From contig JAJGOT010000133.1 of the NCBI GenBank assembly GCA_022457155.1, positions 475,001 to 539,000 on the forward strand: a stretch of DNA of 64,000 bases, in the 5' to 3' direction. This document shows, one piece after another, positions 17,193-27,266 of the stretch (positions are counted from its first letter, which is position 1; each line of letters starts with the position of its first letter). The notes beneath the pieces are model-generated. The model did not search any database, had not been told where the DNA came from, and saw nothing but the letters and a program-made list of their open reading frames with translations. The translations under genes were made by a program, and so were the position numbers. The DNA is from Cladopsammia gracilis. Taxonomy: Eukaryota; Cnidaria; Anthozoa; Scleractinia; Dendrophylliidae.

Positions 17193-18139
17193 GGGTGTTA
17201 CGAAAACGAAGACCCTCGAAAACGAAGACCTAAGACCTAAGACCGGTCTTCGTTTTCGTAGTACGAAAACGAAGACCCCGGTCTTCGTTTTCGTACTACG
17301 AAAACGAAGACCCCGTAAAACAGAAAAACATTGAAATTACAAGTTAAAATCAGCAAGGCTTAGTAATATTATACGACGTTACACTTCACGCGTTCCTTCC
17401 CCATTTATTACGGCAACTACTTGTGCCGCGTCTGCTCTGGCTGCTATGTTTCGCTATGCGAGATAACTTGATTTGGTAGCGACATGGTGGGATAAACTTA
17501 CCAAAATCCGGATATTCTTACGCTAGAGTAAGGATCCAGGATCGGCAGGCATTAATCGAACGCTTGCTGCATGCCTTTGATAAGCCAGGATTGCGTGACA
17601 GTATGAACGCACTCTGTACAGGAAATGATCCTGGGTTTCTGCAAATAAATAATTTTTGTCTAGTGTATCTAGCGAAAAAGATTCAAACAGTCAGTAAGGC
17701 ATGTCAGCTGTGAAATTCTCGTTAAAAAGTAAGCAGTTCTCTTTGCTAAGGACGGGTCTTCGTTTTCGTAGTACGAAAACGAAGACCCCCGGTCTTCGTT
17801 TTCGTACTACGAAAACGAAGACCCTAATATAAAATATCCGAAATCCATTGAAATTACGTGTTTAGACGTGCACTGAGCACCAGCAAAGGTTATTATAGAT
17901 TTTAATACATTTGTACACTTCGCGCGTGGTGTTTTCTTGCTCTTTTTACAACTGCTTTCGGTTCTCTGCTTTGTTTTCCTACGCAAGATGTGCAAGCTCG
18001 TTACAGATTTTCCCGTTGATAGGGCGATTGGAATAGTTTAGGTTTGAATAAGGTTAAGCAAGCTGAATTCGGGCGCGTACTCTCGTTGTTGTCCCAGCAT
18101 TGCGTGACGGAAGTGTACAGTGAAAGAACATGTTCTTCG
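17193..18139 (+). repeat. Left terminal inverted repeat (947 bp) of the giant Mutator-type element
   Basis: Starts gggtgttacgaaaacgaag. It contains two palindromic arrays (17245-17312 and 17755-17823), each built from two inverted copies of a ggtcttcgttttcgta half-site and its complement. These are plausible transposase-binding or foldback sites. The inner end (…gttcttcg) lies 98 bp before the start codon of the element's gene, so the TIR may supply promoter sequence. Confidence 0.93.
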
Positions 18140-18183
18140 AGGTTACAAAGGTCGGCTGTCGCACGTGAGACAGACGTAAACAC

Positions 18184-18210
18184 TTTGGCGCGAAACTTGA
18201 GTCACATGTG
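18184..18210 (+). promoter_or_regulatory. E2F-like and AP-1/E-box motifs just upstream of the transposon gene
   Basis: tttggcgcgaaa (18184-18195) is a perfect palindromic match to the E2F/DP consensus. It is followed by tgagtca (18198-18204, AP-1/bZIP type) and cacatgtg, an E-box. All lie 28-55 bp before the ATG at 18238 and outside the TIR. The motifs are seen; use by the host in cycling cells is inference. Confidence 0.4.
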
Positions 18211-25051: not shown

Positions 25052-26319
25052 ATATTGGGAGCGCAAGGAATCGCGACAGCGCCGGCGAGCCATGTTTCCC
25101 TTTCGTAAACGGTCTATGCCACTGTAGGGTTCAATTTTTCCACTGTCATTGAAATTTTTTTCTACTTGAAGAAAAAAGGAAAATTGCGCTTTAACACCAG
25201 GAAATTTCATACATTTTCTTGTAGCAGCAGCGTGACTGCATCCGTTAAAAAATGGCGTCGCCTGGTTACGAAAGGAAAATTTGCGACGGCGAGGATAACT
25301 TTTTGGTGAAAATGATTTTGTTGACAAACAAATCTAGCAATTATCTAGATAAATGAAGTTTACCTTTTGCGTTAAGAAAGAGTTACAGAAGGTGATTTTT
25401 AGAAATTTGAGCTATGAAGCTCGATGATTGCCTCTTAAAAAGGAGACTTGAAGGATATAACTTCCCTTCCATATATATACCTATTTCAATAAAGGTTGCT
25501 TTGGTCATTGGTAATTGGGCATCAGGAAGCTATTGTTTGGCGGTCACTCAAGCGAAACATTGCATTGTGTTCGTATGCCAAATGCCAATTCCCAATCACC
25601 AATGACCAACTGCCAAAGCAACCTTTATTGAATTAGGTGTATACAGTGACAAAGGTGATTGTAGACAATTCTAAAGGAAACCACCCAAAAGAATCAAGTT
25701 ATTGTTTTGCCTGCCGTTGTGTTATGTTCATGTTAGTCCTCAAACGTGGGGGATCAAAGCATGACGTTTATTGTTTCGTTCATAATAAGTAATAACGTTT
25801 GACTTAACTGTACCCTTTCATGGTTTTTAACCCAAAAATGTTAAGCATGGTACAATATAATACAATGTAGCTCGTTTCGGTTACTGTTATCATTTGATTT
25901 AAATGCGAAAATATCTATTTTGACTGTATTTTATTTTCTTATGGTAAGTGTAGCTTAGTTGTTAGTTGTCGAAAAGAATGTAGAGACCTTATGTGGAAAG
26001 CCATTTTCGTACACTTGGTATAAGTATCAAGTTACCATTCGCCGCGAGGTCTCGTTACCCCCTGGTATTCTGGTTTTGAGTTCAAACAAAGCGGAAACAA
26101 AATAACAAATAACTAGAAAAGGTAGCGTTCCCTAAAAATTCGAAGGCGACATGTGGTATTGTGATTCCAATTTATTTTAATTTGTAATAATAAAGTGTTA
26201 ATAACCGGATATAACTGGACTGTGTTTATTTAACAACGTTTCCATTGCTGGTACACCCTGGTACAGGTATTTCAACCAAAAATGGCCTTCAGTTAGGAAA
26301 AAATATGCTAACTGTCTCA
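25052..26319. other. 3' flank of the transposon gene inside the element
   Basis: Non-coding. It contains an inverted-repeat element at 25475-25644 and an A/T-rich stretch with aataaa-like words (e.g. aataataaagtg near 26187) that could serve as a poly(A) signal before the right TIR. Confidence 0.5.
25475..25644. mobile_element. Small MITE inside the giant transposon
   Basis: The left arm (tatacctatttcaataaagg…) and right arm (…cctttattgaattaggtgtat) are inverted, as are ggtcattggtaattggg and cccaatcaccaatgacc. It is about 170 bp, non-coding, and sits between the transposase stop and the right TIR. Confidence 0.65.
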
Positions 26320-27266
26320 CGAAGAACATGTTCTTTCACTGTACACTTCCGTCACGCAATGCTGGGACAACAACGAGAGTACGTGCCCGAATTCAGCTTG
26401 CTTAACCTTATTCAAACCTAAACTATTCCAATCGCCCTATCAACGGGAAAATCTGTAACGAGCTTGCACTTCTTGCGTAGGAAAACAAAGCAGAGAACCG
26501 AAAGCAGTTGTAAAAAGAGCAAGAAAACACCACGCACGAAGTGTACAAATGTATTAAAATCTATAATAACCTTTGCTGGTGCTCAGTGCACGTCTAAACT
26601 CGTAATTTCAATGGATTTCGGATATTTTATATTAGGGTCTTCGTTTTCGTAGTACGAAAACGAAGACCGGGGGTCTTCGTTTTCGTACTACGAAAACGAA
26701 GACCCGTCCTTAGCAAAGAGAACTGCTTACTTTTTAACGAGAATTTCACAGCTGACATGCCTTACTGACTGTTTGAATCTTTTTCGCTAGATACACTAGA
26801 CAAAAATTATTTATTTGCAGAAACCCAGGATCATTTCCTGTACAGAGCGCGTTCATACTGTCACGCAATCCTGGCTTATCAAAGGCATGCAGCAAGCGTT
26901 CGATTAATGCCTGCCGATCCTGGATCCTTACTCTAGCGTAAGAATATCCGGATTTTGGTAAGTTTATCCCACCATGTCGCTACCAAATCAAGTTATCTCG
27001 CATAGCGAAACATAGCAGCCAGAGCAGACGCGGCACAAGTAGTTGCCGTAATAAATGGGGAAGGAACGCGTGAAGTGTAACGTCGTATAATATTACTAAG
27101 CCTTGCTGATTTTAACTTGTAATTTCAATGTTTTTCTGTTTTACGGGGTCTTCGTTTTCGTAGTACGAAAACGAAGACCGGGGTCTTCGTTTTCGTACTA
27201 CGAAAACGAAGACCGGTCTTAGGTCTTAGGTCTTCGTTTTCGAGGGTCTTCGTTTTCGTAACACCC
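26320..27266 (-). repeat. Right terminal inverted repeat (947 bp) of the giant Mutator-type element
   Basis: Reverse complement of 17193-18139, with 5 substitutions. The matching palindromic arrays are at 26636-26704 and 27147-27214. An open frame at 26464-26652, mirrored at 17807-17995, is a by-product of the repeat. Confidence 0.93.

Follow-up and report, generated by a model that had tools for sequence, protein, structure and literature searches.

The window, by which we mean the whole 64-kb stretch analysed here, contains an element of 10,074 bp (17193-27266) bounded by terminal inverted repeats (TIRs), the left of 947 bp at 17193..18139 (+) and the right at 26320..27266 (-), with five mismatches between them. 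The motif CGAAAACGAAGACC recurs 10 times without mismatch in either TIR, in both orientations (six and four in the left one), and outside the two TIRs the 64-kb window contains no exact copy. The element termini, GGGTGTTACG...CGTAACACCC, abut a perfect 9-bp target site duplication, CAATGTTTG, found at 17184..17192 and again at 27267..27275 (strand not applicable). Elsewhere in the window, a host gene of the SLC3A type has an exon on the minus strand at 41926-42906 (domain matches Alpha-amylase E = 7.8e-80 and SLC3A2_N 9e-9), and two overlapping long open frames of 347 and 1,186 aa at 58685-63237 (+), with no Pfam match above cut-off, possibly belong to another mobile or repeated element.

Between the TIRs, three exons on the plus strand are separated by GT..AG introns and join in frame into a predicted protein of 1,807 aa with no internal stop, ordered as kinase, conserved Cys/Asp-His domain, repeat linker and MULE-type transposase with a SWIM finger. 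Exon 1 (18238..20027, +) encodes the protein kinase domain at residues 36-351 (18343..19290, +), in which GQGSFG, VVVKK, HRDLKPAN and DFG are all present; with a Pfam Pkinase match at E = 1.7e-32, both the fold and the catalytic letters of a eukaryotic protein kinase are found, and we take HRDLKPAN to suggest the Ser/Thr class. The kinase is followed by a conserved domain (19438..20028, +) with NDGTNACAF (C413) and Asp-Thr-His (539-541), whose letters are strongly retained among the rows that cover them (C413 in 31/32, D539 in 29/30, H541 in 30/30), a measure of conservation and not of activity. Exon 2 (20794..21700, +) forms the linker, made of 5.8 copies of a 120-bp tandem repeat with basic KRARKEERER stretches, followed by an acidic tail that by eye resembles the linker tail of the C1094 family described below. 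Intron 1 spans 20028..20793 (+), with a donor at the same position as in C1094 and C964, and intron 2 spans 21701..22324 (+). If intron 1 were retained, the first frame would be 597 aa long, its stop at 20029-20031 lying inside the GTAA donor. An ARAGORN scan found no tRNA in the element; by eye, a stretch of intron 1 (20160-20420), also without a tRNA according to ARAGORN, looks like a tRNA-derived SINE.

Exon 3 (22325..25051, +) encodes a MULE-type transposase of 908 aa. Its window copy falls below the Pfam cut-offs for both MULE (E = 0.0013) and SWIM (E = 0.028); among 33 aligned members, the window included, Pfam MULE is found in 26 and SWIM in 18 at E <= 0.1, with best values of 3.6e-8 and 8.9e-5, respectively. 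D298 (IDPTF, 23216..23218, +) and D367 (TDGE, 23423..23425, +) are invariant in the 33-row alignment and E508 (SESMN, 23846..23848, +) is nearly so; from their motif positions in MULEs we presume these to be the catalytic residues. The predicted SWIM zinc finger (24422..24490, +) has C701, C703, C712 and H714 nearly invariant, and in a second family of the same genome (C997/C964/C318) its match lies above the cut-off (E = 6.2e-5). An AlphaFold model of exon 3 (pLDDT 83.0, pTM 0.49) had ISCth4 as its top three PDB fold matches (E = 1.7e-4, 1.3e-3 and 1.6e-3), so that Pfam matches across members, the D298/D367/E508 triad and the fold comparison all point to a MULE DDE domain. The sequence-only reading of this locus had described the 947-bp TIRs with five mismatches, the perfect 9-bp duplication and three exons with two in-frame junctions, all of which we recovered. 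Of the domains it named, the kinase, the repeat and the MULE/SWIM transposase stand, the last through the 33-member alignment, and the profile search it proposed bore out the kinase and left MULE and SWIM short of the cut-offs in the window copy. Its ‘peptidase-like’ label was not accepted: the Cys/Asp-His domain matched no family in Pfam, NCBIfam or PDB sequences, cysteine peptidases of papain-like, Ulp1/OTU or herpes-tegument type included. Fold searches with the exon-1 model against viral and PDB structures were filled by kinases or unnamed entries in the 50 matches listed and bear on the kinase part; a papain-like protease is a guess from the motifs.

Traces of past activity of the TIRs are scattered through the same genome. 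The window TIR sequence occurs at at least 36 other places (best 40 of 297 candidates), and by our own count 31 of the 36 listed have arms of at least 100 bp in both orientations within 3 kb, i.e. they are short TIR-TIR elements. Three such derivatives were checked for duplications: one (L050) has a perfect 10-bp duplication, another (L048) one of 9-10 bp offset by one base, and the third (L049) none. C1413 has a short element whose TIRs enclose codons 1-45 of exon 1 at 100% identity. These derivatives at other sites are a sign of past mobility only. Among the best 50 of 367 transposase and 73 of 341 exon-1 candidates, a single full copy represents the family to which the window element belongs, and no relatives appeared in viral and prokaryote contig collections with the patterns used.

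Other families in the same 878-Mb genome show that the arrangement is not peculiar to this copy. Copies of a second family, which shares about 50% identity with that of the window, lie on C964, C997 and C318; the C997 element (C997:801414-816367, 14,954 bp) has TIRs starting GGGTGTGTCTGAAACGAAGACC, a perfect 10-bp duplication AAGCACATGT, and both kinase and transposase inside the TIRs. A third family is represented at C1094:511385-521295 (9,911 bp), again with TIRs, a 9-bp duplication (CGGAATTAG) and kinase plus transposase inside, and here too a single frame, of 1,808 aa, runs through the joined exons. Long TIRs with a duplication in the 8-11-bp range of MULEs are thus found in all three (947 bp with 9 bp in the window, 10 bp for C997 and 9 bp for C1094). 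A second C1094-family copy, on C1040, sits at a different site, is 98.9% identical over 5,755 bp and has the same arrangement, its transposase frame being broken near the end. The C1094 transposase gave no Pfam MULE match, and its SWIM match (E = 0.001) is just under the cut-off; it is called MULE-type because of its blastp match to other transposases (1.9e-33 to that of the window). The sequence-only reading had proposed looking for kinase and transposase together between TIRs in several copies, and the two further families show exactly this.

These copies also bear on whether kinase and transposase might have met merely because a MULE landed next to or within a kinase gene of the host, or through nested insertions. 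The genome is rich in transposons, and the C964 copy lacks a right end, the DNA beyond it differing from that of the other copies, as such a chance neighbourhood would allow. Against it, the kinase lies between matching TIRs with 9-10-bp duplications in three families, and the C1094 and C1040 copies keep the same arrangement at different sites. The genome-wide searches gave 57 transposase matches (best 50 of 367 candidates scored) and 74 exon-1 matches (best 73 of 341), which merged into 50 transposase and 57 kinase places; at least 9 of the 50 transposase places have a same-strand kinase match in the 10 kb upstream of them, where 0.017 would be expected if places were random, and this is a lower count because the transposases of C1094, C1040 and C450 are outside the table. 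We therefore find chance hardly credible as an explanation; C997 and C1094 refute it unless those assemblies are wrong.

Not every transposase of this group seems to come with a kinase. One young, kinase-free-looking family accounts for 25 of the 50 transposase places. Among related MULE families, one with a transposase of 963 aa (L017-L030, on C115 and others) appears to have spread very recently: over 5,652 bp, its C115 copy shares at least 99.9% identity with each of 13 further copies. Searches with four relatives detected no kinase in the ~7.4 kb upstream of C115 or C1112, for which reason the kinase is probably optional for this group of transposases; since the kinase of the C964 copy starts 8.5 kb upstream of its transposase, this absence covers 7.4 kb and a kinase may lie farther away. 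C450 seems to add another instance of a kinase with a MULE: an intact kinase frame (36%) precedes MULE-like exons of the same strand, whose best match is the C115 transposase (35%). At C248:1508251-1513149 (L005), an internal deletion joins kinase residues 7-278 to transposase residues 267-908 in a single 905-aa frame.

The history of the kinase and that of the transposase appear to differ. Between the window and C1094 the kinases are 75% identical and the transposases 23.5%. In the kinase tree C1094 and C1040 join the window and P0066 (support 100/99), and the transposase tree places C1094 outside the group formed by window and C964. Constraining each tree to the opposite grouping was rejected (AU p = 0.00014 and 6.6e-6), in tests where C1094 has a long branch in the transposase tree and where the groups were chosen after the first trees had been seen; P0052 and C579 (long branches) as well as the C115 and C1287 families are included in the first trees and lie outside the tests. 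Given these unequal identities and discordant trees, the kinase-Cys-linker module seems to have recombined onto another MULE transposase, judging by sequence comparison; the MULE transposases found with it are of at least two deeply divergent kinds. The Nei-Gojobori estimates between window and C1094 are dN 0.135 and dS 0.929 for the kinase (dN/dS ~0.15) and dN 0.134 and dS 1.037 for the Cys/Asp-His domain; therefore, purifying selection keeps both. Silent sites between the window and C964 are saturated.

MULEs are known to capture pieces of host genes (PMC13317346, PMC6431247), and a recently captured host kinase could in principle be carried along without function in the manner of a Pack-MULE. 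Such a passenger would hardly be expected to remain intact with a dN/dS of this size between two families, nor to recur with the same Cys domain inside the TIRs of further families and in both hexacoral and octocoral records, and we judge this origin very improbable. The element itself has an intact transposase frame beside its constrained kinase, and it was not classed as a Pack-MULE. That the kinase is integral to the MULE, as the sequence-only reading had supposed, is borne out by its position inside the TIRs with duplications in C997 and C1094, by purifying selection, and by a database protein, P0052, that holds both parts. The regulatory role that reading proposed for the kinase, acting on transposition or host chromatin by phosphorylation, is an inference.

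Protein databases extended the picture beyond this genome. The searches yielded 55 transposase relatives and 38 relatives of the Cys/Asp-His domain, 26 of the latter with a precomputed kinase domain. Alignment A1 holds 28 of the 38 together with P0052, P0054 and P0055, alignment A2 holds 32 of the 55 transposase relatives, and alignment A3 the window with eight relatives. P0052 is a single protein of 1,304 aa with Pkinase, Cys domain, repeat linker and most of the transposase, matching window residues 28-592 of 908; it may represent an unspliced reading frame or else a gene model. Gene models of Porites lobata (P0054: Cys/Asp-His domain and transposase pieces) and of Paramuricea clavata, which we take to be an octocoral (P0055: partial kinase, Cys/Asp-His domain and a transposase piece), combine the parts as well, and kinase and Cys domain occur in records of both hexacorals and octocorals. 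A search with the complete 1,807-aa model as query gave no match and is uninformative because it also missed the known P0052. The closest named relative over the Cys/Asp-His domain is from Acropora millepora (86%), which makes a coral the likely host. An Acropora millepora relative is publicly annotated as ‘probable cyclin-dependent kinase 8’. A transposase relative from the sea cucumber Apostichopus japonicus (P0029) has its own tandem-repeat stretch in front, which means that repeat linkers occur beyond cnidarians; a kinase is not among its precomputed domains.

Whether kinase and transposase form one protein is the point on which these records divide. One element might instead hold two genes, with a kinase-Cys protein made from ORF1 alone and a transposase expressed either from a promoter of its own or from exons 2-3, the two acting in trans. 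In the window, ORF1 meets an in-frame stop at the very donor site, and of 31 aligned ORF1 relatives 18 terminate there too, which counts against fusion in that two separate products would also give this, and most exon-3 relatives listed are about as long as the transposase alone. Three observations oppose separate genes: P0052, be it unspliced frame or gene model, spans both parts as one protein, the intron-1 donor position is common to three families, and both junctions keep frame in the window as well as in C1094. P0091, a gene model of Acropora millepora (isoform X2), extends beyond the ORF1 stop at that same intron-1 junction. Two separate genes thus strike us as rather improbable, and the fusion of kinase and transposase is a model predicted from the exon structure.

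We consider it probable, with some reserve, that the window harbours a MULE whose intact kinase frame, inside the TIRs and predicted to be spliced to the transposase, likely controls transposition by phosphorylation. Exons 1-3 would be spliced into one 1,807-aa kinase-transposase polyprotein, the basic linker repeats might mediate nuclear entry, the transposase would bind the 10 CGAAAACGAAGACC motifs of each TIR, and the DDE domain would perform cut-and-paste. The kinase would then act in cis at the transpososome by phosphorylating either its own transposase or host proteins at the ends of the transposon, which could set when or where transposition completes. As the in-frame stop sits inside the donor site, unspliced mRNA could yield the free 597-aa kinase protein as a possible second product. 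Within the same polyprotein, the kinase might alternatively be directed at the host, as a counter-defence or chromatin effector next to a Cys domain that would be a ubiquitin/SUMO-related protease. Other transposons carry Ulp1 or OTU proteases (PMC2836005), and fusions of certain MULE-related transposons with immune adaptor domains are described as well (PMC8195603). The linker tails of the window, C1094 and P0091 contain by eye an acidic IDLSED-like motif, a lead only. This motif, in our estimation, resembles a SUMO-binding motif. However, a preset SUMO-motif regular expression matched 2 of 8 linkers against 1.26 expected, leaving the idea of a SUMO-binding linker unsupported, and the Cys domain matches no protease family. 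We regard a host-directed role as unlikely, though worth keeping in mind.

A broader proposition is that animal MULEs evolved a self-regulating kinase-transposase, that is, an intron-bounded kinase-Cys-linker cassette passed by recombination between MULE transposase lineages and phosphorylating the transpososome in cis. We advance it tentatively, being nearly evenly divided and inclined slightly against it. If true, a transposase that is its own kinase would be a first among DNA transposons, and coral genomes would contain a large, hidden source of kinase genes. Irrespective of this, a signalling enzyme is tied to a eukaryotic transposase and the pair is kept together by selection across families, and the findings point to cassette exchange between MULEs. 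Self-regulation of a transposon by phosphorylation becomes directly testable by comparing wild-type and kinase-dead versions. In counts of coral kinomes, kinases of transposons may pass for host genes, given the Acropora millepora relative named as a cyclin-dependent kinase.

The sequence-only reading knew of no described MULE of this kind, and we likewise found no MULE with a kinase in the open-licence PMC literature. The word kinase has no occurrence in the main texts of a MULE survey (PMC6446971), PMC13317346 and PMC2836005, and it is not mentioned in passages of PMC6431247. A paper on coral MITEs (PMC2872659) deals with piggyBac-type MITEs and not with the window family.

Among known systems, the best fold match of the exon 3 model is ISCth4 (PDB 6xg8), which differs in being prokaryotic and shorter (matched chain of 401 residues); we take it to be an IS256-family element of a prokaryotic host. 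With the MULE/Mutator superfamily the window element shares the DDE transposase, SWIM fingers in several clades, long TIRs and 8-10-bp duplications, although the survey passages give TIRs of 14-500 bp and those of the window measure 947 bp (PMC6446971). Extra domains on transposons have precedents: plant KIU/VANDAL MULEs and the Mutators of hydra and lancelet carry Ulp1, which is conserved in eudicot MULEs, and Ginger1 carries OTU or Ulp1 (PMC13317346, PMC2836005). Unlike the window element, these have no kinase, and the window Cys domain matches neither protease by sequence. TRADD-N/MULE fusions similarly join a signalling domain to Mutator/MULE-related transposons and were proposed as a route to new host architectures, but theirs is an adaptor domain and the passage names no kinase (PMC8195603). 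The nearest precedent is found in the TBE transposons of Oxytricha (Tc1/mariner), which, according to PMC4724952, possess a 57-kD kinase ORF; there, the kinase is encoded on a separate ORF in another superfamily and is not joined to the transposase, whereas in the window both are predicted to form a single protein.
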